DNA from: Bacteroidota bacterium
Lineage (GTDB): Bacteria; Bacteroidota; Rhodothermia; Rhodothermales; UBA10348
Reading direction: 5' to 3'
DNA: 64,000 nt
NCBI GenBank assembly: GCA_029262835.1
Contig: JAJCYQ010000003.1
Coordinates: forward strand, 1 to 64,000
The stretch's first letter is position 1. The number at the start of each line of letters is the position of its first letter. The notes beneath the pieces were generated by a model that saw only the letters and a program-made list of their open reading frames with translations, made no database searches and was not told the origin of the DNA. This document shows, one piece after another, positions 4,986-48,294 of this stretch. Both the position numbers and the translations under genes were made by a program.

Positions 4986-6020
4986 GTGATAGTTAAAAAC
5001 GGCCATTTCGATACCCCGACCGATCTTACGGGCGCGGCGGGCCTGTTCGGCCGCGCCGCGCCCCTCGTCCTTGAAGTCGGCTTTGGCGATGGGCGCTTCC
5101 TCTCGCATCTCGGACGGACGCATCCGGAGTGGAATCTGCTGGGCGCCGAGATCTCGCTCGGCTCCGTGTGGCGCACCTACCGCCGCATGAAGCGCGACGC
5201 TATAGAGCACGTGCGTCTCTACAAGGGAAATGCCGGCTTCATTGTGCGCGACGTCGTCGCGCCCAGCGCGCTCTCGCGCGTCTACGTCAACTTTCCGGAT
5301 CCCTGGCCGCGCAAGAAGCAGTGGAAAAACCGCCTTCTGCAGCCGGATTTCTTCCGCACGCTCCACGCGCGCCTCGCCCCGGGCGGCCACCTCGAACTCA
5401 CGACCGATCACCCGGGCTACTTCGAGTACGCGCTCGCGGCCGCCGCCAGCTCGGAGTGCTTCCTCGCCCAGGAAGGCGCCCCGCCCGAGGCCGCACTCCA
5501 GACCAAATACGCCCAGAAGTGGCTTGGTCAGGGCAAACCCATTTTCCACGCCAAGTTTCGGCCCATTGAACACGTGGCCGCGGGCGCGAACCTGGCCGCA
5601 GCGCACACAGCCGAGGCCGCGAACCCCGCCGCCCCCCTGATCCAGAAAATACCCATGCAGCACGCCCTTCTGTCCGGCCGCCTACCGGCGCATCCAACGT
5701 TCGAAAAACAGGTGCACGCCTTCAGCGGAGGGCACGTCATCATGCTCGAAGTCTTCCGCAAAATCACGGCCGCCGACCCGGCCACCGACTCTCCCGCCGA
5801 GCACGACCAGGACAGCCTGCTCTTCAAAGTCGTGACCGAAGAGCCCGACCTCCGCCAGGAACTCCTCATCCAGGCCTGGCAGCGCACTCCCGATGCCGTC
5901 CACGTCAGCCTGCAGGGCTTCGGCGAGCCCCTCTCCACCCCCGCCGTCCGCGAAGCCGTCCGCTCCGTCACGCTCTGGCTCGAAACCCAGGGCCTCGCCG
6001 TCAAGGACGCGTGGATTTAG
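4986..6020 (+). CDS. trmB: tRNA (guanine-N7)-methyltransferase TrmB with long C-terminal extension
   Basis: Transfers a methyl group from SAM to N7 of G46 in tRNA. The N-terminal ~195 residues hold the Rossmann SAM-binding motif (LVLEVGFGDGRFL), the GAEIS motif and the diagnostic VYVNFPDPWPRKK and LTTDHPGYFEY segments. The usual enzyme is 210-240 residues; this one is 344. The FHAKFR stretch near residue 190 is followed by an Ala-rich linker (AAGANLAAAHTAEAANPAA) and a 130-residue tail containing HPTFEKQVHAFSGGHVIMLEVFRKI. C-terminal extensions are known in some thermophile TrmB proteins (Aquifex type), so the tail may contribute to tRNA binding; that is inference. The gene stands alone between the efflux operon and the restriction island. 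Confidence 0.93.
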   Translation: MIVKNGHFDTPTDLTGAAGLFGRAAPLVLEVGFGDGRFLSHLGRTHPEWNLLGAEISLGSVWRTYRRMKRDAIEHVRLYKGNAGFIVRDVVAPSALSRVYVNFPDPWPRKKQWKNRLLQPDFFRTLHARLAPGGHLELTTDHPGYFEYALAAAASSECFLAQEGAPPEAALQTKYAQKWLGQGKPIFHAKFRPIEHVAAGANLAAAHTAEAANPAAPLIQKIPMQHALLSGRLPAHPTFEKQVHAFSGGHVIMLEVFRKITAADPATDSPAEHDQDSLLFKVVTEEPDLRQELLIQAWQRTPDAVHVSLQGFGEPLSTPAVREAVRSVTLWLETQGLAVKDAWI

Positions 6021-6043: not shown

Positions 6044-7051
6044 TCAGGATTTGCCTGAAGCGAGCCACGTGTCGTAAGCCGCCCTTCCTTTGACATCGTT
6101 TCGATGGATGTCGTCGTGATGAACGTTGCAAAGGGTGACCAGGTTGTCCAGCTCATTGCTCCCTTTTTCTACGTGATGCTCTACGTGGTGCAGTTCGAGA
6201 AGTGAGCGCGGATCACCGGCGCTCTGTTGGCGTGGGTTCCACCCACAGAACTGGCAACTGAAATCGTCGCGCTCAAGAACGGCAACGCGAACCACGTCTG
6301 GTATTTTTCTGTCGTGCGGTTGAGACTGCCTGTCCGCTTCCAGTATGTAAGTACCAACGGGTAGATCAGGGCGTCCGCTGCTGCGCGTTGCAACTGGCCA
6401 CCCTTCCTCTGTTCGTAATTCGCGGGTTCTCCGTCCCCATTCCGTCGCGCCCTTGGCGACATACCGAAGCTCCTCACCCGTGACAGGCTTTCCTTCGTTT
6501 TCTCGCAGATATGTCAATATGCGGTCGCGGACCGAGAGGTCAAGTTTTCGCACAGAATTGGCCACATTCCATCGATGAGCAGCGTCACGATCCTGTTCTC
6601 CGAGCAGGATGTAGTCGTCCACGTCCATAGCCTGGATGGCCTCAGCGTGCACCTGGGGGCCGAACAAATCATGCCTTGACTCTTTGTCCTCCTCACTCAG
6701 CATTTCCCGGGCTGTAATTCCAGAATAGATGGGCCAGCCGAACTGTACGCGTAGTTCACGGACACGACGCGCATACTCGGAAATTCCCGAAACGACGCCC
6801 AGTTCGTCTCCGGCAATGACGGTGAATGGAAATCGTCTCAGATAGGTGAGAATCCTGTCCCGCGCAGAAGATGTGCTGCTGCCCGGAACGAGAGAACTGC
6901 CGAGATCTCTCAGAACATGAACGGCAGGAATAAGCGATTTGACCTGTTCCCTGAGATTATCCTGCTTGAGGCGCTGCTCAAAATCAGTCAGGAGATCAAT
7001 CAGCTGTCGACGTAACAGCTCCGGATTGTCAAGCCTCGTTTTTCGCGCCAT
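6044..7051 (-). CDS. HNH restriction endonuclease with duplicated winged-helix-like repeat
   Basis: Probable restriction partner of the adjacent cytosine methyltransferase. The C-terminal part (residues ~256-318) is a complete HNH/beta-beta-alpha-metal nuclease: CQFCGWNP zinc ribbon, LLELHHVEHH, LDNLVTLCNVHH and the final DIHRND. Residues ~63-110 and ~174-222 are two copies of one ~50-residue unit (RDRILTYLR ... GDEL or GEEL ... RRVREL or RRTREL ... GWPI or GWPV), likely DNA-recognition modules. I start at the ATG giving MARKTRLDNP. An upstream in-frame TTG at 7078 overlaps the methyltransferase stop and is possible. Recognition sequence is unknown. Confidence 0.85.
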   Translation of the reverse strand: MARKTRLDNPELLRRQLIDLLTDFEQRLKQDNLREQVKSLIPAVHVLRDLGSSLVPGSSTSSARDRILTYLRRFPFTVIAGDELGVVSGISEYARRVRELRVQFGWPIYSGITAREMLSEEDKESRHDLFGPQVHAEAIQAMDVDDYILLGEQDRDAAHRWNVANSVRKLDLSVRDRILTYLRENEGKPVTGEELRYVAKGATEWGRRTRELRTEEGWPVATRSSGRPDLPVGTYILEADRQSQPHDRKIPDVVRVAVLERDDFSCQFCGWNPRQQSAGDPRSLLELHHVEHHVEKGSNELDNLVTLCNVHHDDIHRNDVKGRAAYDTWLASGKS

Positions 7052-7074
7052 GGAAGCATCCAGTTGGGTATACG

Positions 7075-8286
7075 TCAACCAAAGATTGGCTCAGGATCGT
7101 GGACGGCTACTTTCCACATGCGTTCACGATCCCCAGTCAGTAGCGCACATGCCGACTCGGCCACAGCCTTGGCGAGCAGGGGCGGTACCGCATTTCCGAT
7201 CTGGCGCGCGATCTCGATTTTGCTTCCCTTGAATTCGAAATCGTCCGGAAAGGTCTGAAGTCTGGCCGCCTCACGGTGCGTGATGGGTCGATGCTGATCT
7301 GGGTGCAGGTACCTGCCTTTCTCCGGTTTGAAAAACTCAGTCCTGATAGTAACTGAGGGCCGATCCCACCATAGCCGTCCAAAAAGATCTGTCCCACCGG
7401 ACTTTTTGCGGATCCAGCAGTTGGGCGTTATCTCTGGAGCGTTCTTCTGTAGATCAAACCTGTTCCCGCCTGGCGGCACGGCCCTGTACCGCTTCATACT
7501 CTTCTCCGTTGGATTTCGGCCAAAATGAAGATTGAGCGGTACGGGGGCATCTCGGATTTCGGTTCCAATGGGCGCAGGCAGGTCACCAATGGCACTTTGG
7601 ACATCCCGCCACGGCTTGGGCGACTTCACATACTCGTCGAAGAGAATTGAGTCGTCAGAGAGACTGCGTTTGTTGTAGTGCGTTTTCTTTGGTGGGAATG
7701 CATCCGAAGGCGGCGTTCCCTTGGATCCGAAAATGAAAGCACGATAGCGCTCCTGCGGCACTCCGTAATCGGCGGCGCACAGCACAGCCGAGGCCACATC
7801 GAAGCCAAGGCGGTTTGCTTCATCGCGAATCTCGTGAAATTCGAGAGAGCTCACGAGCTGACGCACGTTCTCCATTACAAATACCCGGGCTCCGGAACGC
7901 TCGACAATGTCCATGAATGGTCTCCAGAGTTGCTTTCTCGGATCTGCAACCCGGTTCTTGTTGAGCAAACTGAAACCTTGGCATGGGGGCCCACCTATGA
8001 CAACATCCGCTTGGGGTACCTCCATTCCGTCCTGAAGCAACTGCACGATGTCTCCAAATGTACAGTGGTCGCCAAAGTTGGCGTTGTACGTCGCCGCTGC
8101 CTCTCTATTGAAATCGTTGGCCCAGACCGGCGCGAACGCCTTTTCTCCAGCCGATCTGAGGACGTTGGTAAAACCGAGCGTCAGCCCACCCGCACCGGAA
8201 AAAAGATCAATCACTCGGAATTGTTCGGACATGTGCACGTTTCGGTTCAGGTCGGTAGATCGAAAGGGTGAATAGAAAGTTGTCAT
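7075..8286 (-). CDS. DNA (cytosine-5)-methyltransferase, type II restriction-modification system
   Basis: Modifies a cytosine in the restriction site to protect host DNA. C5-methyltransferase motifs are in canonical order: motif I VIDLFSGAGGLTLGF, motif IV IGGPPCQGFS with the catalytic Cys, motif VI FVMENVRQLV, motif VIII region (QERYRAFIFGS), and motifs IX-X (THREAARLQTFPDDF, IGNAVPPLLA). The ATG at 8286 overlaps the stop of the small upstream ORF (ATGA), which suggests coupling, but the ATG at 8232 (MSEQFRVIDLF) gives the usual short leader and is an equally good start. The HNH gene follows immediately, so both are probably co-transcribed from the right. Confidence 0.93.
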   Translation of the reverse strand: MTTFYSPFRSTDLNRNVHMSEQFRVIDLFSGAGGLTLGFTNVLRSAGEKAFAPVWANDFNREAAATYNANFGDHCTFGDIVQLLQDGMEVPQADVVIGGPPCQGFSLLNKNRVADPRKQLWRPFMDIVERSGARVFVMENVRQLVSSLEFHEIRDEANRLGFDVASAVLCAADYGVPQERYRAFIFGSKGTPPSDAFPPKKTHYNKRSLSDDSILFDEYVKSPKPWRDVQSAIGDLPAPIGTEIRDAPVPLNLHFGRNPTEKSMKRYRAVPPGGNRFDLQKNAPEITPNCWIRKKSGGTDLFGRLWWDRPSVTIRTEFFKPEKGRYLHPDQHRPITHREAARLQTFPDDFEFKGSKIEIARQIGNAVPPLLAKAVAESACALLTGDRERMWKVAVHDPEPIFG

Positions 8287-10144: not shown

Positions 10145-11770
10145 TCACCCCCGCTTCAACCGCCACGGGCTGAAGCTCGCGCGGCCGTCAGTACCTGACA
10201 CTCCGGCGGCGACACCGGTACCGGAGCCGCCTTCACCACTGCTCCCGTCAGCGACCCCGTTTGACCCCGAACGGCTGCCGCCCTGGCCCACGCCAGAACC
10301 ACCGCCCTTCCCCGTAAACCGGTCCACATAGAGCGCGGCCGCCATGGCGAGCACGTCGTCGGGGAGATCGTCGCCGCGATCGAGCGAGTCTGCCTTGAAG
10401 TGCTGCTCGACGAAGTGCGTGGAGAAGGCGCCGCTCGTGAAGGCGTTGTGGTCCATGACGAAGCGGCAGAACGGGATGGTAGTCGCTACGCCCGCGATTT
10501 CGTACTCATCGAGGGCGCGTCGCATGCGGCGAATGGCCACCTCCCGCGTTGGGCCCCAGGTCGTGAGCTTTGAGATCATGGGGTCGTACTGGATGGGGAT
10601 GGTGCCGCCTTCCTCGACCCCCGCATCTACCCGGACGCCGGGTCCGGAGGGCGCGACGTGCCGAATGAGCGGCCCGGGATCGGGTAGGAAGCCCGAACGG
10701 GGGTCCTCGGCGTAGACGCGGCACTCGACGGCGTGGCCGTGGATGGTGAAGTCACTCTGCGCGTAGCCGAGGGGTTCGCCCGACGCAATACGGATCTGCT
10801 CGGCGACGAGGTCAAGGCCCGTGATCCATTCGGTCACGGGGTGCTCGACCTGCAGGCGCGTGTTCATTTCCATGAAGAAGAAATTGCGGTCGGCATCTAC
10901 CAGGAATTCGACGGTGCCTGCGCCGACGTAGCCGCACGAACGCGCGGCGCTTACGGCCGCTTCGCCCATTTCTGCGCGGAGCTCGGGCGTCAGAATGGCA
11001 GACGGAGCTTCTTCGACGACCTTCTGGTGGCGGCGCTGTATGGAGCATTCGCGCTCGAAAAGGTGGACCGTATTGCCGCGCTGGTCAGCCATGATCTGGA
11101 ATTCGATGTGGCGCGGCTCGTCGATATACTTCTCAATGAACACGCGGCCGTCGCCAAACGCTGACGTGGCCTCGCGGCGCGCGGCTTCCATGGCGCCTAT
11201 GAAGTCTTCGGCGCGGCGCACAATGCGCATGCCCTTGCCGCCGCCACCGGCCGCCGCCTTGATGAGGACCGGGAAGCCGATCTCTTCGGCAATGGCGCCG
11301 GCCTCGTCCACATCGTCTATGGCATCTACCGTGCCCGGCGCCATGGGAACGCCCGCCTTTTCCATGAGCTTTCGGGCCGCTGTTTTGTCGCCCATGGCGC
11401 GGATGGCGTCCACGGGCGGACCGATGAACAGAATGCCCTCGGCCTCGCAGGCCGCCGCAAACTCGGCGTTTTCGGACAGGAATCCATACCCTGGATGCAC
11501 GGCGTCGGCGCCCGTACGCCGGGCCACCTCGAGCACGCGGTCCGCGCGCAGGTAGGAGTCGGAGCTCGCCGCGCCGCCCACGCACCAGGCCTCGGTCGCC
11601 ATGCGCACGTGTGGGGCGAGGGCATCGATGTCGCTGAACACGGCGACGGTTTCAATGCCCAGTTCGTGGCACGTGCGCATGATGCGCACGGCAATTTCGC
11701 CGCGATTGGCGATGAGTACCTTGCGGATCGGGGTCGTTGCGGCGCCTTCGGCCGCAGTTGGGTCTGCCAT
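10145..11770 (-). CDS. accC: Biotin carboxylase (acetyl-CoA carboxylase AccC or acyl-CoA carboxylase subunit)
   Basis: ATP-dependent carboxylation of the biotin on BCCP, the first half-reaction of fatty-acid synthesis. It opens with IRKVLIANRGEIAVRIMRTC and continues with VHPGYGFLSENAEFA, the ATP-grasp glycine loop (AAAGGGGKGMR), EKYIDEPRHIEFQI, FFMEMNTRLQVEHPVTE and a GHAVECRVYAEDP segment. At 541 residues it is ~90 longer than usual. After residue ~450 there is a Gly/Ser-rich tail (GGGSGVGQGGSRSGSNG) ending SPWRLKRG, resembling the start of the BT-domain region of longer acyl-CoA carboxylases, but no biotinyl Lys motif follows. No accB is adjacent. It is divergent from the DnaJ-type gene across a 66-bp promoter region. 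Confidence 0.93.
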   Translation of the reverse strand: MADPTAAEGAATTPIRKVLIANRGEIAVRIMRTCHELGIETVAVFSDIDALAPHVRMATEAWCVGGAASSDSYLRADRVLEVARRTGADAVHPGYGFLSENAEFAAACEAEGILFIGPPVDAIRAMGDKTAARKLMEKAGVPMAPGTVDAIDDVDEAGAIAEEIGFPVLIKAAAGGGGKGMRIVRRAEDFIGAMEAARREATSAFGDGRVFIEKYIDEPRHIEFQIMADQRGNTVHLFERECSIQRRHQKVVEEAPSAILTPELRAEMGEAAVSAARSCGYVGAGTVEFLVDADRNFFFMEMNTRLQVEHPVTEWITGLDLVAEQIRIASGEPLGYAQSDFTIHGHAVECRVYAEDPRSGFLPDPGPLIRHVAPSGPGVRVDAGVEEGGTIPIQYDPMISKLTTWGPTREVAIRRMRRALDEYEIAGVATTIPFCRFVMDHNAFTSGAFSTHFVEQHFKADSLDRGDDLPDDVLAMAAALYVDRFTGKGGGSGVGQGGSRSGSNGVADGSSGEGGSGTGVAAGVSGTDGRASFSPWRLKRG

Positions 11771-20897: not shown

Positions 20898-21019
20898 ATC
20901 GTATTGTATTGTCACGCCACCTGTGCGGGCGGGTTCCGTGATAGACCCGGCGGAGATCGGATCGTAACCCGGCATTTCTCGATTTGCACAGAACTCGGGC
21001 GCGCCGTATACTTGCCGCA

Positions 21020-21165
21020 CTTCCATAAAGAACGACCGAGGGACTGGCCCTGTGACGTCGTAGCAACCGGGTTCCGGGGCGCGCAAGTGGATACCACAAA
21101 CGCGCAAAACGGAACTGACCTGGTGCTAAATCCTGCTCGAAGCGAAGCTCGAGGATGATGGGAGG
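21020..21165 (+). ncRNA. SAM-I (S-box) riboswitch aptamer
   Basis: The S-box consensus blocks are present in order: a P1 arm CTTCCAT (21020-21026), the GAGGGACTGGCCCTGTGACG core, AGCAACCGG, a variable P3 region with GGGGCGCGC, then GGTGCTAAATCCTGC and the P4 hairpin (CTCGA ... TCGAG), and the closing GATGATGGGAGGA. P1 closes as CTTCCAT with ATGGGAG (one T-G wobble). Binding SAM stabilises P1 and frees the downstream CCCTCCC to form the terminator. Without SAM, GGGAGG at 21160-21165 can pair with CCTCCC at 21197-21202 as an antiterminator. It therefore represses the methionine operon starting at 21366 when SAM is plentiful. Confidence 0.93.
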
Positions 21166-21194
21166 AGGACGGCAGCCGTCGCGGCAGCCGGTGC

Positions 21195-21223
21195 ACCCTC
21201 CCCACTATCCGGGAGGGTTTTTT
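21195..21223 (+). terminator. Rho-independent terminator of the SAM-I riboswitch
   Basis: Stem ACCCTCCC (21195-21202) with GGGAGGGT (21211-21218), 8-nt loop and a T6 tract ending at 21223. The 5' arm overlaps the candidate antiterminator partner, making this the expression platform of the riboswitch. Confidence 0.88.
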
Positions 21224-21365
21224 CGTTTTCGGGGATGATGGGAGCTGTGGGTCGGTCCAGCCGTCCCGTGGTTCCGGCACCAGGGAAGGGGGCTGCGCAG
21301 CGAGCGGGAAAGGTCTTTCGGCACAACAGGCGCTGCACGCGCCGCCGAACCGAACCCGAACCGAC

Positions 21366-22526
21366 ATGAAGCTCCAGACCCGACTCGCACTCGCCGGACA
21401 AGAAACCGATGGTACGTACCGCAGCGTGGTGCCGCCCATCTACCAGTCGGCGATTTTCAAATTCGAGAATCCCGACACGAAACCCGACTACGACTATTCC
21501 CGCAGCGGAAACCCTGGGCGGAATGCCCTGGAGGAAGTTCTGGCCGACCTGGAAGGCGGCGCCGGGGCGGTCGCCACGTCGAGCGGCATGTCGGCGGTCA
21601 CGACCGTCCTGGGCCTGTACGATGCGGATGCCCACATCCTTTGTTCGCACGACTGTTACGGCGGCACGGAGCGCCTGCTCACCGTCTGGGCGCGGCAGGG
21701 GCGGCTGAAGGTATCGTTCGTGGACCTGACAGATGTCCGCGCAGTCGAGGCGGCCATTCGGCCGGGCACCAAGGCCATCTGGGCCGAAACCCCGTCGAAT
21801 CCGCTACTGCGGATAATTGACCTGGCCGCCGTGAGCACAGTGGCGAAGCGGCACGGTCTGGAATTGATCGTCGACAACACGTTCCTGTCGCCGCTTTTCC
21901 AGCGGCCGTTCGAGTTCGGCGCGGACCTGATTGTGCATTCCACGACGAAGTATCTGAACGGCCACTCGGACATCGTGGGCGGCGCGGTGGTGGCGAGGAC
22001 GGAGGAGCGGGCGGCGGACATCCGGTTCACGTCGAATGCACTTGGTTTGACCGCCGCCCCATTTGACAGTTGGTTACTGGTTCGCGGCCTGAAAACGCTC
22101 CCGCTCCGGCTCCGGCAGCACGAAGAGAATGCCTTTGCGGTGGCGCGATTTCTGGCCGAGCATGACGCGGTGGACAAAGTGTTCTACCCGGGCCTCGAAA
22201 CCCATGTGGGACACGATATTGCGCGCCGGCAGCAGTCCGGGTTCGGAGGCATTGTGAGCTTTCGCCTGAAGGGCACGGGAGCGGACGCGCGCCGCGTGCT
22301 GGGCGCCACGCGCGTGTTCGCGCTGGCCGAAAGCCTGGGCGGCGTGGAATCGCTCATAGAGCAGCCGGCGACCATGAGCCACGCATCCATGCGGCCCGAG
22401 CAGCGAGCCGAAGCGGGCATCACCGAGCAGATCATCCGTCTTTCGGTGGGCATCGAAGATACGTCGGACCTGCTGGCGGACCTGGAATTGGCGCTCAGTC
22501 GGGTGGAAACGGGGGTCCTCGTCTGA
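21366..22526 (+). CDS. metB: Cystathionine gamma-synthase-type PLP enzyme (Cys/Met metabolism)
   Basis: A 386-residue fold-type I PLP enzyme of trans-sulfuration. Signatures: YSRSGNPGRNALEEVLADLE, AVATSSGMSAV, WAETPSNPLLRIIDL, VDNTFLSP and the Schiff-base Lys195 in HSTTKYLNGHSD, plus QSGFGGIVSF and SLGGVESLIEQPATMSH. Co-location with metX favours O-acetylhomoserine as substrate (cystathionine gamma-synthase or direct O-acetylhomoserine sulfhydrylation). Length fits cystathionine gamma-synthase better than the ~430-residue MetY type. First gene after the SAM-I riboswitch, with a single base before metX. Confidence 0.88.
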   Translation: MKLQTRLALAGQETDGTYRSVVPPIYQSAIFKFENPDTKPDYDYSRSGNPGRNALEEVLADLEGGAGAVATSSGMSAVTTVLGLYDADAHILCSHDCYGGTERLLTVWARQGRLKVSFVDLTDVRAVEAAIRPGTKAIWAETPSNPLLRIIDLAAVSTVAKRHGLELIVDNTFLSPLFQRPFEFGADLIVHSTTKYLNGHSDIVGGAVVARTEERAADIRFTSNALGLTAAPFDSWLLVRGLKTLPLRLRQHEENAFAVARFLAEHDAVDKVFYPGLETHVGHDIARRQQSGFGGIVSFRLKGTGADARRVLGATRVFALAESLGGVESLIEQPATMSHASMRPEQRAEAGITEQIIRLSVGIEDTSDLLADLELALSRVETGVLV

Positions 22527-22527
22527 C

Positions 22528-23715
22528 ATGAGCACGCTCCAGTCAAAAACTGTAAACTCCCGGCTCAGCCCGCCCCGCCAGGTGTTCTTCGCAGGCGATG
22601 TCACGCTCGAGAGCGGGCGCACGCTGAAGGGCGTCGAGGTGGCGTACGACACGTGGGGCCGACTGAACGATGCGGCAGACAACGCAATCGTGGTCTGCCA
22701 TTCGCTGACGGGCGACAGCCATGTGCCGACGTGGTGGCCGGGGCTCATCGGGAGCGGCGCGCCGATCGATACGGACCGGTATTTCGTGGTATGCGCCAAC
22801 ATGCTCGGATCGTGCTACGGCACGACGGGGCCCTCCAGCACGAATCCGGAAACGGGCCGCCCGTACCGCGCGGACTTTCCGGTGCCCACCATCCGGGACG
22901 GGGTGCGCCTGCACCGAAGGCTCATGGATAGGCTCGGCGTTCGGCGTGTCCATGCGGCTATCGGGGGCTCGCTGGGGGGGATGCAGGTCCTTGAATGGGG
23001 ATTTGAGAGGGTAGGAGCGAAGGAAAGACCAGAACTGGGCGAGCTGGAGCAGAGCGAACCCGAAGGTGACCACCGCGCGCCTGAAGGAAAACAAGATGAT
23101 TCATTCAAGTCTGAGCCCTTCGTCCAGCACCTCATCCCGGTCGCCACGTCCGGGCGGCATTCGGCGTGGTGCATTGCGTGGAGCGAGAGCCAGCGGCAGG
23201 CCATTTATGCCGATCCTGCGTGGAACGGCGGGAATTACAGCGCGGCGCATGAGCCGAGGCAGGGCCTGGGTGCTGCGCGCATGATGGCCATGTTGTCATA
23301 CCGGACGCAGGCATCGTTTGAAAGGCGCTTCGGCACGAATACGGCGACGGTGCAGTCCTATCTGCATCATCAGGGAAAGAAACTGGTGGACCGGTTCGAT
23401 GCGAACAGTTACGTGCGCCTCAGCCATTCGGCCAACACGCACGATGTGGGGCGGGGGCGGGGCAATTATAACGCGGTGCTCGCCCGTCTTACGCAGCCGA
23501 CGCTCGTCATCGGGGTGGATTCAGACGTGCTGTTTCCGCTCCGCGAACAGGAAGAGCTGGCACGGATCATGCCGAATGCCGAGCTTGCCATTATTAAGTC
23601 GGAGCACGGCCACGACGGCTTCCTGCTCGAAACTCCACAACTGGGCGCCCTCCTCCGGGATTGGCTCCGCTCGTTTGAACAGAAAATCGAAGAAACATCA
23701 TGCATATTGACCTGA
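22528..23715 (+). CDS. metX: Homoserine O-acetyltransferase MetX, with acidic insertion
   Basis: Acetylates homoserine with acetyl-CoA at the entry to methionine synthesis. An alpha/beta hydrolase with Ser148 in GGSLGGMQ, Asp333 in the GVDSDVLFP motif and His362 in SEHGHDGF; NMLGSCYGTTGPSS and HSLTGDSH are MetX hallmarks. Residues 159-196 are an in-frame, charged, repetitive insertion (KERPELGELEQSEPEGDH and more) between the nucleophile helix and HLIPVATSGRHSAWCIAW, where other MetX proteins have about ten residues. Its purine-rich DNA differs from the flanks. The SDR gene starts 16 nt before its stop. Confidence 0.93.
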   Translation: MSTLQSKTVNSRLSPPRQVFFAGDVTLESGRTLKGVEVAYDTWGRLNDAADNAIVVCHSLTGDSHVPTWWPGLIGSGAPIDTDRYFVVCANMLGSCYGTTGPSSTNPETGRPYRADFPVPTIRDGVRLHRRLMDRLGVRRVHAAIGGSLGGMQVLEWGFERVGAKERPELGELEQSEPEGDHRAPEGKQDDSFKSEPFVQHLIPVATSGRHSAWCIAWSESQRQAIYADPAWNGGNYSAAHEPRQGLGAARMMAMLSYRTQASFERRFGTNTATVQSYLHHQGKKLVDRFDANSYVRLSHSANTHDVGRGRGNYNAVLARLTQPTLVIGVDSDVLFPLREQEELARIMPNAELAIIKSEHGHDGFLLETPQLGALLRDWLRSFEQKIEETSCILT

Positions 23716-24464
23716 CCAACCAGACCATCCTCGTTACCGGCGCGAGCCGCGGAATCGGCGCAGAAATCACGCGCCAGTTGCACGCCAGTGGCGCCCATGT
23801 GGCCCTGCACTACGGCCGTTCGGAAAAGGAGGCGCGTGCGCTTGCTGCCGAACTCGGGGACGGCCGCGTGACGCTGTTCCACGCCGATCTGGCCGATGCC
23901 TCAGAAGCAGGCTCCCTGTTCGAGGCCGTGGTGGGCCAGCTGGGTCCGGTTGCGGCGCTCGTAAACAACGCCGGTGTGGCCATCGAGAGTGAGCTTGACA
24001 CATCGACCGAAGACTGGGTCCGCGCGTGGGACCTGACGCACGACGTGAACCTGCGCGCGAGTGGCATCCTCTGCCGCGCGGCCATCCAGCACTGGCTGGG
24101 CACGGGGGCTCGCGGGCGCATCATCAACATTGCATCCCGCGCCGCTTTCCGGGGCGATACGAAGGACTACATCGCGTATGCTGCATCGAAAGGGGGCATG
24201 GTGTCCATGACGCGCTCCATTGCGCGCGCCTGGGGCAAGCAGGGGATTGTGGCCTTCACGATCGCCCCCGGATGGGTCATGACGGACATGGCCAAGCAGT
24301 TCATTGCCCAGAACGGCGATGACGTGGTGCTGCGCGAGCTGGCCCTGGCCGAGCTCACCCAGCCCAAGGACGTCGCCCCGACCGTGGTTTTTCTGGCCAG
24401 CGGCCTCTCGGACCACGCCACGGGGTGTACCATAGACATCAACGCGGGAAGTTATGTCCACTGA
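23700..24464 (+). CDS. SDR oxidoreductase (FabG-like) inside the methionine operon
   Basis: A 254-residue classical SDR with TGASRGIGAEI (NADP-type), NNAGVAIE, catalytic Ser in IINIASRAAF and YAASKGGMVSMTRSIA, and a C-terminal GCTIDINAGSYV motif. Translation starts inside metX and its stop lies 11 nt inside the aspartokinase gene, so it is embedded in the operon by overlaps on both sides. FabG is the nearest general family, but a fatty-acid role is unlikely here. No step of the aspartate-to-methionine route lacking elsewhere in the operon needs an SDR except homoserine dehydrogenation, which other families perform. Function unknown. Confidence 0.88.
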   Translation: MHIDLTNQTILVTGASRGIGAEITRQLHASGAHVALHYGRSEKEARALAAELGDGRVTLFHADLADASEAGSLFEAVVGQLGPVAALVNNAGVAIESELDTSTEDWVRAWDLTHDVNLRASGILCRAAIQHWLGTGARGRIINIASRAAFRGDTKDYIAYAASKGGMVSMTRSIARAWGKQGIVAFTIAPGWVMTDMAKQFIAQNGDDVVLRELALAELTQPKDVAPTVVFLASGLSDHATGCTIDINAGSYVH

Positions 24465-25575
24465 TTTTGCGCATTTCCGCACGCCCGCTTCGCCCCCCGG
24501 CCATTCGCCGCCCGCGGTTTCCTCGCCGAAGGTGCTGAAGTTCGGCGGGACGAGCGTCGGCTCGGCGCCGGCGCTCAAGCAGCTCCTGGCGATAGTGGCC
24601 AGCGAACCCGAACCGCCCGTCGTGGTTGTGTCGGCGCTTTCCGGCGTCACAAATGCATTGGAAGGACTGATTGATTCGGTTCTGGGTGATGCGCAACACG
24701 ACTCTCAAGGTGGCACGCCATCTGTAGGCATTCTACTGGAGCAGGCTGTAGCACAGGGAGTAGATGCGCTCTGCTCGCGCCACCTGGACCTCGCCAGGGC
24801 CGTCCTGCCGGCCGATGCGCTCCGCGAGTACCACCAGATCCTCCGCATTGTACTCGGCCGCCTGGAGTTGCGGCTGGCGGAGATGATGGCGTTTGGGGGC
24901 ACAGAAAGGACGTCTGCTGGCGCCGAAGATCACGCCGCAGACCGGGACGCGGTGCTGTCGGTTGGGGAGCGGCTTTCGGCACCGCTTATTTCCCTGGCGC
25001 TCGGCACGCGCGGAGTCCCCTCCACGTGGGTCGACTCGCGCCACCTCATCCTCACCGACAACTCGCACGGCGCAGCCGTCGTGGACCTCGCGGCCACGGG
25101 CGTCGCCGTCCGCGCGTGGTATGCATTGCTCGCGCCCGGCGTCGTGCCCGTCGTGACCGGCTACATTGGCCGCTCGGTGACCGGGCGGACGACGACGCTG
25201 GGCCGAGGCGGAAGTGATTACAGTGCCGCGCTGGTTGCCGAGGCCCTTTCAGCCCGCAAACTCGACCGCTGGACCGACGTGGACGGCATCCACACTGCCA
25301 ATCCGCGCCTCGATCCCTCGGCCCGCCGCTTCTCGTTCCTCCTGGCCGAAGATGCCAGCACCTGGAACGCCGCCAAAGCCCTCGGCATGCACGAGCAGGC
25401 CTTCGACCCCGTGGTCCGCGGATGCATTCCGGTGCACGTCCGCAGCACGCTCCACCCCCACGGCGACGGCACCCTCATCCTCCCCCGCGCCCTCCCCGAC
25501 CGTATTGGCCGCGACGCGCACCTCCTGAAGCACGGCACGCCTGCTGGATCGCCGGCCGCTGCTTCTACCCTTTGA
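24454..25575 (+). CDS. Aspartate kinase catalytic domain without ACT regulatory domains
   Basis: Phosphorylates L-aspartate, the first step to methionine, threonine and lysine. Catalytic motifs: VLKFGGTSVGS (residues 27-37), VVVSALSGVTNAL, SVGERLSAPL, TGYIGRS, TTLGRGGSDYSAALVAEAL and TDVDGIHTANPRLDP. The protein ends at residue 373, soon after GCIPVHVRSTL and HGDGTLI, where ordinary enzymes continue into two ACT domains. Allosteric inhibition by lysine or threonine should therefore be absent, with control left to the SAM riboswitch; that is inference. A stretch at ~78-95 (DAQHDSQGGTPSVG) is longer than usual. It is not fused to homoserine dehydrogenase. Confidence 0.88.
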   Translation: MSTDFAHFRTPASPPGHSPPAVSSPKVLKFGGTSVGSAPALKQLLAIVASEPEPPVVVVSALSGVTNALEGLIDSVLGDAQHDSQGGTPSVGILLEQAVAQGVDALCSRHLDLARAVLPADALREYHQILRIVLGRLELRLAEMMAFGGTERTSAGAEDHAADRDAVLSVGERLSAPLISLALGTRGVPSTWVDSRHLILTDNSHGAAVVDLAATGVAVRAWYALLAPGVVPVVTGYIGRSVTGRTTTLGRGGSDYSAALVAEALSARKLDRWTDVDGIHTANPRLDPSARRFSFLLAEDASTWNAAKALGMHEQAFDPVVRGCIPVHVRSTLHPHGDGTLILPRALPDRIGRDAHLLKHGTPAGSPAAASTL

Positions 25576-25583
25576 AGAGACCC

Positions 25584-26864
25584 GTGAAAATCAATCCATC
25601 TTTTGATCCGAAAAACCCGGACTCCCCGAAACTCCGTGTGTGCATTCTCGGGGCGACTGGCGCCGTCGGCCAGCGCTTCATTAAACTCCTCGAGCACCAC
25701 CCGTGGTTCGAAGTCACCGCCGTCGCCGCCTCCGAACGCAGCGCCGGCCGCCCCTATCGCGATGCCGTCGACTGGCTCGGCCACCACCCCATCCCCCCGG
25801 CCGTCGCCGATATGACCGTCGGCACCTGCGTGCCACCCCCTCACTCAACCCCGAGCATCCCCAGCGATTCACACAACCCAGCAACCCCTGCCGACCAAGC
25901 CTCGCAATCGCGCCCGTTTGATCTGGTCTTCTCTGGCCTCGATTCCTCCGTCGCCGAAGAAGTTGAATCCGCCTTGGCCGCCGCCGGATACCCGGTCATC
26001 TCGAACGCCAAGAACCACCGGATGTACCCCGACGTGCCCCTCCTCGTCCCGGAGGTCAACCCCGATCATCTGGCGCTGATCGACCAACAATGTAGGGTCG
26101 AAGACGTCAACTCGACTCAGTCGAAACACTTCTCAGGTAGCGCTTCAGCAGTAGACACCGGGTCGAAAGGATTCATTGTTACCAATCCAAACTGCGCCAC
26201 CGTGGGCCTCGTCTTGGCCCTCAAACCCCTGCACGATGCGTTCGGCGTTGAATCTGTCCTCGTCACGACCATGCAGGCCATATCCGGCGCCGGATACCCT
26301 GGCGTCCCGGCGCTTGACATCCTCGGCAACATCATTCCCCACATTGGTGGCGAAGAAGACAAGCTTGAAACCGAACCCCTGAAGATCCTCGGCCGACTCA
26401 GGAATCCAGATCGTGCCGAATACGAATCCAGTCAGACTGACAACGGAGGGTCCAGCCGTACACAACCCCTCGAAATCGCCCCAGCCAATATTGCGGTTAG
26501 CGCCAGCGTGAACCGGGTCCCGGTTGTTGACGGTCACCTGGAGAGCGTCTCGGTGCGCCTGACCGGCTCGCCATCTCCCGAAGCCGTCGCTGACGTCCTT
26601 CGCCATTGGCGCGCGCCGGACGTCGTCCGCTCCCTACCGTCATCTCCCGAAAAGCCCCTCGAAGTATTCGACGACCCCTCCTTCCCGCAACCGGCGCGCC
26701 ACGCAGGCCTCGGCCGCGGCATGACGGTATCCATAGGCAAAATCCGCGCCTGCCCCGTGCTCGGCATCAAGTTCAACATTTTGTCGCACAACACGATACG
26801 AGGGGCCGCCGGAGGTGCTGTCCTGTGCGCCGAGCTGCTGGTGCGCCAGAACGTTGTACCGTAA
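25584..26864 (+). CDS. asd: Aspartate-semialdehyde dehydrogenase with three low-complexity insertions
   Basis: Reduces aspartyl phosphate with NADPH to aspartate semialdehyde. The GTG start gives MKINPSFDPK; the NADP motif is VCILGATGAVGQR (19-31), the catalytic Cys204 is in NPNCATVGL, and the IGGEEDKLETE segment marks the fungal/archaeal-type subfamily; HNTIRGAAGGAVL closes it. At 426 residues it is 60-70 longer than relatives because of insertions at about 82-110 (HSTPSIPSDSHNPATPADQA), 171-195 and 273-298. It is the last gene of the riboswitch-controlled operon, 8 nt after the kinase. The insertions sit between conserved blocks and probably form surface loops. Confidence 0.92.
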   Translation: MKINPSFDPKNPDSPKLRVCILGATGAVGQRFIKLLEHHPWFEVTAVAASERSAGRPYRDAVDWLGHHPIPPAVADMTVGTCVPPPHSTPSIPSDSHNPATPADQASQSRPFDLVFSGLDSSVAEEVESALAAAGYPVISNAKNHRMYPDVPLLVPEVNPDHLALIDQQCRVEDVNSTQSKHFSGSASAVDTGSKGFIVTNPNCATVGLVLALKPLHDAFGVESVLVTTMQAISGAGYPGVPALDILGNIIPHIGGEEDKLETEPLKILGRLRNPDRAEYESSQTDNGGSSRTQPLEIAPANIAVSASVNRVPVVDGHLESVSVRLTGSPSPEAVADVLRHWRAPDVVRSLPSSPEKPLEVFDDPSFPQPARHAGLGRGMTVSIGKIRACPVLGIKFNILSHNTIRGAAGGAVLCAELLVRQNVVP

Positions 26865-44303: not shown

Positions 44304-44888
44304 CTATTCCCGGAGCGCCAGGCGGATCATGTCCTCGGCGCTCGTGGCGTCCGGGTACTTCTCGGTGACGCTCCGGAGCGCTTTGATGGCAGCGGCCTGC
44401 GAAAGGCCGAGGGCCTGCAGCGCGGCGAGGGCGTCTTTCGCCGTGTCTGGCTGGGTGGATGCGCCCGCCGCGCCGTCCTCAGCGAGCGCAGCCATGCGGT
44501 CGCGAAGCTCGAGCACCATGCGCTGGGCGGTTTTCTTGCCGACGCCCGGAATGCGGGTCAGCATGGCGTGGTCCCCATCCACAATACGGCGCTGGATTTC
44601 AGATGGGCTCATGGCGCTGAGTGCCGCGAGCGCGAGTTTCGGCCCGACGCCCGATACGGCAATCATGAGCGAGAAGACGTTGTACTCCGAGTCGGTGGCG
44701 AATCCGAAGAGGTCCTCGGCATCGTCTCTGACGGAGTGATACGTGGTCAGCCGGGCGGGTTTCCCTGTCGCCGGCAGGGCCTCAAAGGTCGACGTCGGAA
44801 TGTAAATGCGATAGCCTATCCCGGCCGCCTCGATGATGGCTTCGGTGGGTTTCTTGAGGGCGAGGGTACCTGCGATGTAGGCGATCAT
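44304..44888 (-). CDS. ruvA: Holliday junction branch-migration protein RuvA
   Basis: A 194-residue DNA-junction-binding subunit of RuvAB. The OB-fold start MIAYIAGTLALKKPTEAII, the LTTYHSVRDDAEDLFGF block, the HhH motifs (ISGVGPKLALAALS-like VSGVGPKLALAAL and IPGVGKKTAQRMVLEL) and the C-terminal RuvB-binding domain (ALQALGLSQAAAIKALRSV) are all present. It starts inside the nadE stop (4-nt overlap). ruvB and ruvC are not nearby. Confidence 0.96.
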   Translation of the reverse strand: MIAYIAGTLALKKPTEAIIEAAGIGYRIYIPTSTFEALPATGKPARLTTYHSVRDDAEDLFGFATDSEYNVFSLMIAVSGVGPKLALAALSAMSPSEIQRRIVDGDHAMLTRIPGVGKKTAQRMVLELRDRMAALAEDGAAGASTQPDTAKDALAALQALGLSQAAAIKALRSVTEKYPDATSAEDMIRLALRE

Positions 44889-46795
44889 GGGTTGGTCGTC
44901 GGGTTGGCGGGTTCGCTGGGCGATGTGGGGTCGGAGGGTTCGCTGGTCAATGCGCGGTCGGAGGGCTCGGCGGGGGCCGTTCGGCGCGCCGTAATGGGAA
45001 GGCGGCGGCCGGCACCGAAGGCCTTGGCCGAAACGCGCAGCCCCGGGGCGGCCTGTTTGCGCTTGTACTCGTTCCGGTCGACCGCGCGGAGAATGCTGCC
45101 AACGAGTTCGGCGTCGAAGCCGGTTGCACGGGAGATGGCTGCTGCGCCCTGGCGCTCGTCAATGTAGCGCTCGAGAATGGCATCGAGCACCTCGTAGGGC
45201 GGGAGCGAATCTTCGTCCTTCTGGTCCGGCCGGAGTTCGGCCGACGGGGGTTTTTCGATGGTTGACTGCGGGATAACGTCCCGCCCGGCACGCTCATTGA
45301 TATGGCGGGCGAGCGCGTAGACATCGACTTTGTAGACATCGGCAAGGACGGCGAGGCCGCCCGCCATGTCGCCATACAGCGTGGCGTAGCCCATGGCGAG
45401 TTCGCTCTTGTTGCCCGTTGCCAACAGCAGCAGGTTGAACTTGTTGGAGAGCGCCATGAGCGTCGTGCCGCGAACGCGCGCCTGGATGTTTTCTTCGGCG
45501 AGGCCGCGTGGCGTGCCCTCGAAGTGGGGCGCGAGCATGTCTTCAAGGGCCTTGACGGCGGGTTCAATGGCGATTTCGTGGAGCTGGATGCCGAGTGCGC
45601 TGGCGAGCGCCCGGGAGTCCGAGACACTGCCCGTGGAGCTGAACCGCGAGGGGAGCGTGGCGCCCAGCACCTTGTCCGGCCCGAGGGCCTCGACGGCGAG
45701 GGCGGCGGTAACGGCCGAGTCTATCCCGCCCGAGAGCCCAATAAGGGCCCCATCGAAGGCGCCCGACTTCGCGGCGTAGTCGCGGATGCCGAGCACGAGC
45801 GCGTTGTGGATCAGGGCAATGGTATCACGCGGAGATGCGGAGGTGTGCGTTGCGGCAGTGAGCGTTGCGTTGGTTGGCGTTTTGTTGGTAGGCTCGGCGG
45901 TACACGGGGCCGGGCCGGCGGTAGTCCGGGCGTCGCCCGGCCGCGCGAATTCCCAGTACACGATGGCCTCTTCGAAGGCGGGGGCGTGCGCAGTGATGAC
46001 GCCGGATGCCCCGTGCACGCGGCTGTCGCCATCGAAAATGAGATCCGTGTTGGCGCCCACCTGGTTGACGACGACAATCGGCAGGCCGTGGCGCTGGCAA
46101 ATGGCTTCGCCGAGAGCGGTACGCGTTGCGGGTGCGTGGTCGGAGAAAGGGCTGGCCGAGATATTGATGAAGAGGTCGGGCCCGAGCGCGGCGAGGTCAT
46201 CGATGGGATGCGCCGCATACAGGTGGTAGGACGCGGCGAAGGGCTCATTCCACATATCCTCACAGATGCTGACGCCGAGCCGCGTGCCACGAAATGTCAT
46301 GAGCGGCTGGGGGCCGGCAGCCTCGAAATATCGGCTTTCGTCGAATACGTCGTAGGTCGGCAGGAGGCGCTTGTGGATAACCTGTGGAGAATGTCCTTTT
46401 TCAATCAGGATGGCAGCGTTGAGGAGCGGTTTTCCGCCGTGCCTGTCCGGTTCGTTCTGTTTGCCCGGTCCGCTTGTTGTGGCATCGCCAGCCGCCACAG
46501 TCTCTTTGGCCTCGCTGGGAGCCGCCGCGGACGGGTTCGGGACGGGAGCCCCAAAGAGCAGGCCAATGCCCTCTGGAAGAGCCGCTTCAAGGGCACGCGT
46601 GGCGCGCTCCACATCCCCGAGGAAGGCGGCATCGTAGAGCAGATCGAGCGGCGGGTATCCGGTCAGCGAAAGTTCGGGCGAGACGACGAGATCTGCGCCA
46701 GAAGCCTTCGCCTCACGGCAGGCCGCGAGCAGGCGGCGGCTGTTTCCGGCCAGATCTCCGACCGTCTGGTTGATTTGTGCGAGAGCGATTTTCAT
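44885..46795 (-). CDS. nadE: Glutamine-dependent NAD+ synthetase with low-complexity insertions
   Basis: Final step of NAD synthesis, amidating deamido-NAD with ammonia from glutamine. Nitrilase-like N-terminal domain with Glu41, Lys142 and Cys178 (VSICEDMWNEPF); C-terminal synthetase with the PPi loop LSGGIDSAVTAALAVEAL (~354-371) and KSELAMGYATLYGD, then DVIPQSTIEKPPSAELRPDQ. At 636 residues it exceeds the usual ~550-580. Insertions lie at ~87-121 (AAAPSEAKETVAAGDATTSG) and ~286-322 (Thr/Ala/Asn/Pro-rich), plus an ESPS/PT-rich C-terminal tail. Catalytic residues are untouched. Overlaps both ruvA and the Rieske gene by 4 nt. Confidence 0.95.
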   Translation of the reverse strand: MKIALAQINQTVGDLAGNSRRLLAACREAKASGADLVVSPELSLTGYPPLDLLYDAAFLGDVERATRALEAALPEGIGLLFGAPVPNPSAAAPSEAKETVAAGDATTSGPGKQNEPDRHGGKPLLNAAILIEKGHSPQVIHKRLLPTYDVFDESRYFEAAGPQPLMTFRGTRLGVSICEDMWNEPFAASYHLYAAHPIDDLAALGPDLFINISASPFSDHAPATRTALGEAICQRHGLPIVVVNQVGANTDLIFDGDSRVHGASGVITAHAPAFEEAIVYWEFARPGDARTTAGPAPCTAEPTNKTPTNATLTAATHTSASPRDTIALIHNALVLGIRDYAAKSGAFDGALIGLSGGIDSAVTAALAVEALGPDKVLGATLPSRFSSTGSVSDSRALASALGIQLHEIAIEPAVKALEDMLAPHFEGTPRGLAEENIQARVRGTTLMALSNKFNLLLLATGNKSELAMGYATLYGDMAGGLAVLADVYKVDVYALARHINERAGRDVIPQSTIEKPPSAELRPDQKDEDSLPPYEVLDAILERYIDERQGAAAISRATGFDAELVGSILRAVDRNEYKRKQAAPGLRVSAKAFGAGRRLPITARRTAPAEPSDRALTSEPSDPTSPSEPANPTTNP

Positions 46796-48294
46796 TCGGG
46801 GCGGGTTGGGGGCGCTGCGACGGAAAGCTCGCCTGCCTCGCGCGCGTAGAGCTCGTCGCGGTAGGCTCTTTTCAGCGCGGACTGGAAGTGATGTACGCCG
46901 CCTTCGAGGTCGTACGAGAAGCGGCCGCGGTCGTAGGCGTTCGACTGGAGGCCGCGCTGCACGTGCTCGCAGATGTCGATGTCCTCAGCCTGGACGCGAT
47001 CGCTGAAGGCGCGATCGGCGGCAATGCGGTCGGGGGGAATGCGGTCGACGACGGTCCGGCCGGTCGTCCGATGGGTCGTAGCGGGCGGGGCCTTGGGCTC
47101 GGCGCCTTCGGACTCGCTGCCAGGGTTGGGCCCAGGGGACGACGTTGACTGTCCGTAGTAGTAGTCAAATACTACAGAGCAGGCATTGCTCGCCACCTGA
47201 TCGACCCGGTTCACCTGCAGGCGGCCGGGCAGGATGTTGAGCATCAGGTTGGGAAATACGAAATAATAGTAGGCCTGCTCGTTGGCGGCTCCATAAGCCT
47301 TGGAAGCTGCCTTTATCGGGCTGTGCTGCAACGAGTACCAGTCAAAAGTCTCGGTCACGTATGTGCTGAAATCCAGCAGGTCGCAGAGCTCCGGATGGAC
47401 AAGCGGGAGGTGGTAGCCTTCGAGATAGTTGTCTACATACACCTTCCAGTTGGCCTTCACCGCGTAGACGTCGCGCGCGGCGTACGTGAAGGAGGCGAGG
47501 TCGTAGAGGGCGTTTGGCGCCTGTGATTCCGGTGCCAGTGATTCCGGTGCAGATTTTTCCTTGGCGGGCATTTCGCGTGATGTATAGTCGGCCGCGGCCC
47601 CTGGCGCGAGGACGTCCGCAGCGCCTGGAGCAGGGACGCGCGCAGCCGGATCGACGCCCGTAATGCGCTCGCGGATGCCCTGCATGATGTCGGCAAGCGG
47701 CGGCGTTTCATCCGGCCGCAGGCAGACGAACAGGAGGCCCTCCCAGATGCCAACGGCGATTTCGGTAAGGCCGTAATCGCGCTTGTCGAAGAGCTCGGTG
47801 CGGTCGAAGCGTGGCACGCCGCGGAGCATGCCGTCGAGCCGATAGGTCCAGCCGTGGTATTGGCACTGCAGCATGCGGGCTGCGCCGCAGGGGGTGGTTA
47901 CAAGGGGACCGCCGCGGTGCTTGCACACATTGTAGAAGGCCCGAAGCCGCCCCGCCCGGTCGCGGACGGCGACGACGGGGTTGCCGGCGACGATGTCGCT
48001 TACGAACGTACCGGGCTCGGCAACGCGGCTCGCCGGCCCCACGTATTGCCAGGAGCGCTCAAGGACAACCTTGCGGTCGAAGGCGTGGAAGTCGGCGTCC
48101 ACATACCAGGCGCTCGGAATGGTCTCGCTCGTGGCAAGCGGCGATATGCCAAGATCCTCTGCGCGCAGCGCGGCAGGGCGCGCTGCAAGAAGGCCGTCAG
48201 CGCGACGTTCCATGCAACCTGCAGATGGGTTATCGGAATGCCCAGCAATCGGGCCCTCCCCTCTGGGGGATATATGTGGAAAAGGTGTGGACAT
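46792..48294 (-). CDS. Rieske-type ring-hydroxylating/quaternary-amine oxygenase, alpha subunit
   Basis: A 500-residue Rieske non-haem iron oxygenase. The [2Fe-2S] ligands are C124 and H126 (NVCKHRGGPL) and C144 and H147 (CQYHGW); the mononuclear iron site is DNYLEGYHLPLVHPEL with H295 and H300. The overall pattern resembles choline and carnitine monooxygenases more than classical aromatic dioxygenases. Two in-frame low-complexity insertions occupy ~217-262 (APGAADVLAPGAAADY) and ~383-426 (SSPGPNPGSESEGAEPKAPP). No reductase or ferredoxin gene is adjacent. It starts directly after aroE and overlaps nadE, so it is part of the aroE-RHO-nadE-ruvA run. Substrate unknown. Confidence 0.88.
   Translation of the reverse strand: MSTPFPHISPRGEGPIAGHSDNPSAGCMERRADGLLAARPAALRAEDLGISPLATSETIPSAWYVDADFHAFDRKVVLERSWQYVGPASRVAEPGTFVSDIVAGNPVVAVRDRAGRLRAFYNVCKHRGGPLVTTPCGAARMLQCQYHGWTYRLDGMLRGVPRFDRTELFDKRDYGLTEIAVGIWEGLLFVCLRPDETPPLADIMQGIRERITGVDPAARVPAPGAADVLAPGAAADYTSREMPAKEKSAPESLAPESQAPNALYDLASFTYAARDVYAVKANWKVYVDNYLEGYHLPLVHPELCDLLDFSTYVTETFDWYSLQHSPIKAASKAYGAANEQAYYYFVFPNLMLNILPGRLQVNRVDQVASNACSVVFDYYYGQSTSSPGPNPGSESEGAEPKAPPATTHRTTGRTVVDRIPPDRIAADRAFSDRVQAEDIDICEHVQRGLQSNAYDRGRFSYDLEGGVHHFQSALKRAYRDELYAREAGELSVAAPPTRPE

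Follow-up and report, generated by a model that had tools for sequence, protein, structure and literature searches.

Rickettsia palindromic elements are inserted in frame in genes and are homologous copies of one repeat. Conserved signature indels are lineage-specific indels in conserved proteins and are conserved within their clade. A further type of change, indels in structure-less segments with traces of tandem repeats, is described for internal exons (PMC12457776), and an enrichment of tandem repeats in disordered regions is reported for proteins generally (PMC7230257). An open-access search, a thin basis, returned no paper on a trait of loop inserts in Rhodothermales.

The window analyzed here is the whole 64,000-nucleotide stretch G000:C3:1-64000, from the 3.45-Mb draft genome (G000, 103 contigs) of an uncultured Rhodothermales bacterium. 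The relatives compared are Rhodothermales metagenome assemblies, of which G001, G002, and G003 belong to the same genus as G000 and G015 is the outgroup. In genes inherited vertically, the species nearest to G000 are G001 and G003 (∼75 to 83% at the amino acid level), and G002 is more distant (∼63 to 71%). Twelve segments were studied (one in MetX, three in Asd, three in NadE, the third being a C-terminal tail, two in the Rieske oxygenase, two in TrmB, and one in AccC), and the presence or absence of inserts was scored at the same alignment columns in as many as 34 relatives for each gene.

In-frame segments in core enzymes of the window

In-frame hydrophilic segments, 15 to 53 aa long, occur in MetX, Asd, NadE, the Rieske oxygenase, and TrmB, and the Pfam domain families of these proteins were confirmed, with matches flanking the inserts on both sides. 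The initial annotation had reported low-complexity inserts at particular residues of the first four proteins, and these agree with the alignments to relatives and with solved structures. The interval to which it assigned them covers MetX to Asd; NadE and the Rieske oxygenase lie at positions 44888 to 48294. The features of the first two genes are as follows.

22528..23715, + strand: metX, homoserine O-acetyltransferase with one insert (Pfam, PDB alignment)
23008..23115, + strand: MetX insert, residues 161 to 196, charged (alignment to relatives)
25584..26864, + strand: asd, aspartate-semialdehyde dehydrogenase with three inserts, GTG start inferred (Pfam)
25833..25916, + strand: Asd insert 1 (PPPHSTPSIPSDSHNPATPADQASQSRP), model pLDDT <50 at residues 88 to 108 (alignment, predicted model)
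26094..26168, + strand: Asd insert 2, model pLDDT <50 at residues 171 to 194 (alignment, predicted model)
26403..26489, + strand: Asd insert 3 (alignment to relatives)

The MetX segment is 36 aa long in G000, 8 aa in the sister G002, and 0 to 6 aa in 29 other relatives, and the PDB alignment with the solved structure 2vat is interrupted at query residues 159/196. The alignment places the Asd segments at residues 83 to 110, 170 to 194, and 273 to 301 (numbered from K25587), with respective lengths of 28, 25, and 29 aa in G000, 16, 16, and 9 aa in G002, and at most 11, 10, and 14 aa in other relatives. With six sequences and a mean pLDDT of 61, the Asd model is shallow and therefore uninformative for loop 3; its pLDDT is below 50 at loops 1 and 2 but also over a long part of the fold, and it adds little. 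No match to MetX or Asd was found in G001 or G003.

The metB-metX-SDR-ask-asd cluster (window positions 21002 to 26843) shows 79 to 89% DNA identity to G002, with flanking matches at ∼64 to 80%, and the fourfold divergence of its genes is 0.16 to 0.28, versus 0.36 to 0.72 around them. This suggests, at the level of sequence comparison, that the cluster may have been exchanged within the genus.

NadE and the Rieske oxygenase are encoded side by side on the opposite strand.

44888..46795, − strand: nadE, glutamine-type NAD synthetase with two internal inserts and a C-terminal tail (Pfam)
46424..46537, − strand: NadE insert 1, 38 aa (alignment to relatives)
45824..45952, − strand: NadE insert 2, 43 aa, weak 15-bp tandem array (alignment, tandem-array scan)
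44888..44977, − strand: NadE C-terminal tail (NadE3), 27-bp tandem array, 2.5 copies (alignment, tandem-array scan)
46795..48294, − strand: Rieske oxygenase, fold closest to CntA, two inserts (Pfam, structure model)
47503..47661, − strand: Rieske insert 1, 24-bp and 15-bp tandem arrays, pLDDT <50 at residues 218 to 259
46993..47151, − strand: Rieske insert 2, 15-bp tandem array, pLDDT <50 at residues 386 to 416

The internal NadE segments correspond to residues 87 to 124 and 282 to 324 of the alignment. The first, 38 aa in G000, corresponds in position to an unrelated 43-aa sequence in G003 and measures at most 9 aa elsewhere, and at least half the length of the second (43 aa in G000) is reached in 5 of 25 relatives outside the genus. 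The NadE3 tail varies in length across the whole family and is not a sharp insert. In the Rieske oxygenase (residues 212 to 264 and 382 to 434), the first and second segments measure 53 and 53 aa in G000, 15 and 19 aa in G001, 20 and 30 aa in G003, and at most 3 and 21 aa outside the genus. The core of the Rieske model, for which CntA is the closest solved fold, is confident (pLDDT of at least 90 at 264 of 500 residues), and values below 50 occur at residues 1 to 35, 218 to 259, and 386 to 416, the latter two being the inserts. The Rieske inserts are thus predicted to be disordered, as very-low-confidence loops in a confident core.

The remaining segments lie in TrmB and AccC.

5562..5642, + strand: TrmB insert 1, 27 aa (alignment to relatives)
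5766..5810, + strand: TrmB insert 2, 15 aa, weak 12-bp tandem array (alignment, tandem-array scan)
10181..10312, − strand: AccC glycine/serine-rich linker ahead of a conserved C-terminal motif (alignment)

At the site of TrmB insert 1 (27 aa), G001 and G003 each have 32 aa with a different sequence, and the other relatives reach at most 14 aa. Both proteins had been described as carrying extensions similar to the inserts. For TrmB (window positions 4986 to 6020) the supposed extension is largely a C-terminal region of ∼150 aa after the methyltransferase domain, which is kept in relatives with the motif PMQHA...VSLQxFGxP, and the inserts lie within it. For AccC the variable segment is present but is a C-terminal linker whose length varies family-wide rather than a sharp insert; at the end of the protein (window positions 10148 to 10330), several relatives keep a short motif, FSxWRxxR, after the hypervariable linker. 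Between these genes (window positions 6044 to 8286), a putative cytosine-methyltransferase-like ORF adjoins an HNH-like ORF; counterparts occur in the syntenic contig of G002.

For 8 of the 12 segments, all relatives from other genera have less than half the G000 length. The congeneric genomes fill these loops with segments of differing length and unrelated sequence; NadE1, NadE2, and TrmB1 are of similar length in G000 and G003, with unrelated sequence between conserved flanks. Sister species do not, therefore, share conserved segments, which is the reverse of the refuting case set initially, in which close relatives would have had the segments with conserved sequence. The residues FILMVWYC make up 10% of the inserts versus 33% of the host cores, and P, S, and T are approximately twofold enriched in the inserts. 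Codon-position G+C is nearly flat in the inserts compared with the hosts (GC2 is raised, and GC3 is 0.55 versus 0.76 in MetX/Asd), which fits young or weakly constrained coding sequence. Location in loops and disorder-like composition are found in the Rieske model, in the composition itself, and, in a weak model, for Asd loops 1 and 2. Several of the enzymes thus have extra, probably disordered surface loops, rich in proline, serine, threonine, and alanine, which in close relatives are missing or hold unrelated sequence. The alignments of relatives, the Rieske model, and composition support the proposal that flexible surface loops received recent, lineage-specific insertions; the structural check called for initially places the Rieske inserts in low-confidence loops and gives for Asd a weak model with loops 1 and 2 below 50.

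That the segments are an assembly artefact or compensated frameshifts is scarcely credible. The draft is fragmented into 103 contigs, but each reading frame runs on into conserved blocks at either side, and inserts at the same loops are present in sisters that were assembled independently.

Origin of the insert DNA

Small mobile elements inserting in frame, like the Rickettsia palindromic elements, could account for in-frame inserts in unrelated genes, and a short, dispersed repeat of palindromic or MITE-like type is indeed present in the genome. This repeat is, however, absent from the window, and a search of the 12 segments against the whole 3.45-Mb genome, which is blind to elements decayed past recognition, returned apart from the segments themselves nothing better than E = 0.6. 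A homology search among the 12 segments likewise showed no match of one insert to another. With none of 12 segments having a second genome copy, an origin in small inserted elements, as the initial annotation had offered, was rejected and is very unlikely.

A dispersed short repeat with inverted ends (TTAGGGGCTGTTAACACTACGTCAG...) was seen at L076:28-80, L346:2958-3213, L177:6317-6480, and the ends of L174 and L271. It lies close to many contig ends in G001 and resembles a MITE or IS end.

Tandem arrays with a score of at least 50 cover 193 of 1263 insert bases (15.3%), versus 0.33% of the remaining window. The segments bearing them are NadE3, Rieske 1, and Rieske 2, with NadE2 added at a score of 40 and TrmB2 at 30, and random placement of segments gave as many array-hit segments in 0.17% of trials (score of 50). 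The periods are 12, 15, 24, and 27 bp, all multiples of three, which codon structure alone favors; since low-complexity coding sequence inflates scores and favors periods of three, the arrays support duplication without proving it. In the NadE and Rieske inserts they are sequence traces pointing to in-frame duplication or slippage. No tandem array was found in 7 of the 12 segments (MetX, all three of Asd, NadE1, TrmB1, and AccC), and duplication is only assumed there for that reason. Repeat expansion, also proposed initially, is hence supported for NadE and Rieske and weakly for TrmB, with no such trace in MetX and Asd. Templated duplication from within 3 kb was rejected as a source, the best matches in 12 tests being close to those of shuffled sequence; the only marginal cases were TrmB1 (0 of 40 shuffles) and MetX (1 of 40).

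The segments probably represent a lineage-specific expansion of disordered surface loops at fixed permissive positions, by short duplication or small insertion followed by divergence. A new segment would arise mainly by short in-frame tandem duplication (units of 12 to 27 bp) or another small insertion, and would be tolerated because the loop is solvent exposed and away from catalytic blocks. Substitution and further indels would then make it diverge fast.

Regional concentration within the genus

Insertions were compared regionally between reciprocal-best orthologues in pairwise alignments, counting those of at least 10 aa with conserved flanks. The comparison covers ∼0.64 Mb of the 3.45 Mb of G000 (the window and ∼0.58 Mb of other sequence) versus 0.92 Mb of G015. 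The ratio of insertions longer in G000 to those longer in the other genome is 19:3 for G015, 20:5 for G002, 21:0 for G001, and 11:4 for G003.

This strong directionality, together with the recurrence of the same loops in sister species, would favor selection of the segments for some role, for instance in solubility, interaction, or regulation. Against it, the sequence is not kept between sisters, and the neighboring MetB, GDH, and TypA, in which alignment revealed no inserts, do without such loops. In a separate count over 79 joint alignments of orthologue sets, from which MetX and Asd are left out because G001 and G003 lack them, no private insertion of at least 10 aa occurs in G001. Adaptive loops are accordingly an improbable account.

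Of the 19 G000 insertions relative to G015, 15 fall in the window (5745 aligned residues) and 4 elsewhere (34257 residues), which gives densities of 2.5 and 0.12 per 1000 aa, an ∼20-fold difference at a mean identity of 0.65 in both. Insertions of at least 10 aa occur in 8 of 17 window genes versus 4 of 119 others (Fisher p = 4e-6); this and the p values below are descriptive only, because they come from several schemes of comparison and from a window chosen post hoc for the trait. In the sample examined (∼0.64 of 3.45 Mb), the expansions cluster in this region of the chromosome and in this genus, and the genome-wide process proposed by the initial annotation does not agree with these counts. 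Beyond the sample, regional concentration is suggestive.

Insertions are likewise more frequent in the G015-syntenic block than at other loci for G001 (p = 0.013) and G003 (p = 0.006), with G002 unclear (p = 0.16), in tests of sister species that are not independent because ancestry and some insert sites are common with G000. Window genes lacking a G015 partner exceed the rest in comparison with G002 (p = 0.012), the values for G003 and G001 being 0.05 and 0.08.

Ordinary family variation offers another reading, in which these genes tolerate loop change and the window is extreme because it was selected. MetX has further variable loops in other genera, as the alignment shows, and the NadE3 tail and AccC linker vary family-wide. 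Window genes are also longer and higher in GC3 than the remainder, which includes very conserved gene clusters, and for these reasons ordinary tolerance combined with window selection keeps substantial weight. The enrichment nevertheless persists within identity classes and when only genes with a length of ≥150 aa and a GC3 of ≥0.7 are considered (7 of 13 in the window versus 4 of 47 others, p = 0.001, odds ∼12-fold), and insertion density in the syntenic block is 0.5 to 2.5 per 1000 aa in this genus versus 0 to 0.44 in other genera of the family. We regard ordinary variation as a possible account, though not the probable one.

Fourfold-site divergence from G003 is 0.44 in the window and 0.34 to 0.53 elsewhere, and that from G001 is 0.43 in the window, within the range of other regions. 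A raised local point-mutation rate was rejected, given that window fourfold divergence lies within the range of other regions, as was low expression as a cause, the codon-adaptation proxy being 0.741 in the window versus 0.701 in the rest. It is a tentative and rather doubtful proposal that this genus-specific region is a hot spot for protein-loop growth, where in-frame duplications may be commoner or selection locally weak, with the synonymous rate not raised. For the replication position of the region, GC skew and DnaA positions in G015 were examined; the DnaA family gave two strong matches in each of three genomes (G000:C81 and C17; G002:C16 and C14; G015:C2 and C1).

Relation to known systems

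The in-frame lengthening of disordered loops in these core enzymes is real and recent, and its kind is known in principle. Core bacterial enzymes tolerate disordered loops of 15 to 53 aa that are gained and rewritten within one genus, and close relative pairs with and without a loop are material for testing its cost or role. If the regional bunching holds genome-wide, it would represent an unusual variation in indel rate or tolerance along a bacterial chromosome, independent of point mutation.

The segments share with the Rickettsia palindromic elements their in-frame addition to unrelated genes but differ in being all mutually unrelated. Like conserved signature indels they are lineage-specific indels in conserved proteins, in contrast with which they are not conserved even between sister species. 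The likeness to tandem-repeat indels in disordered regions lies in the structure-less segments and the traces of tandem repeats, the difference being that here they occur in bacterial core metabolic enzymes and, in the sample examined, cluster in one chromosomal region of one genus.
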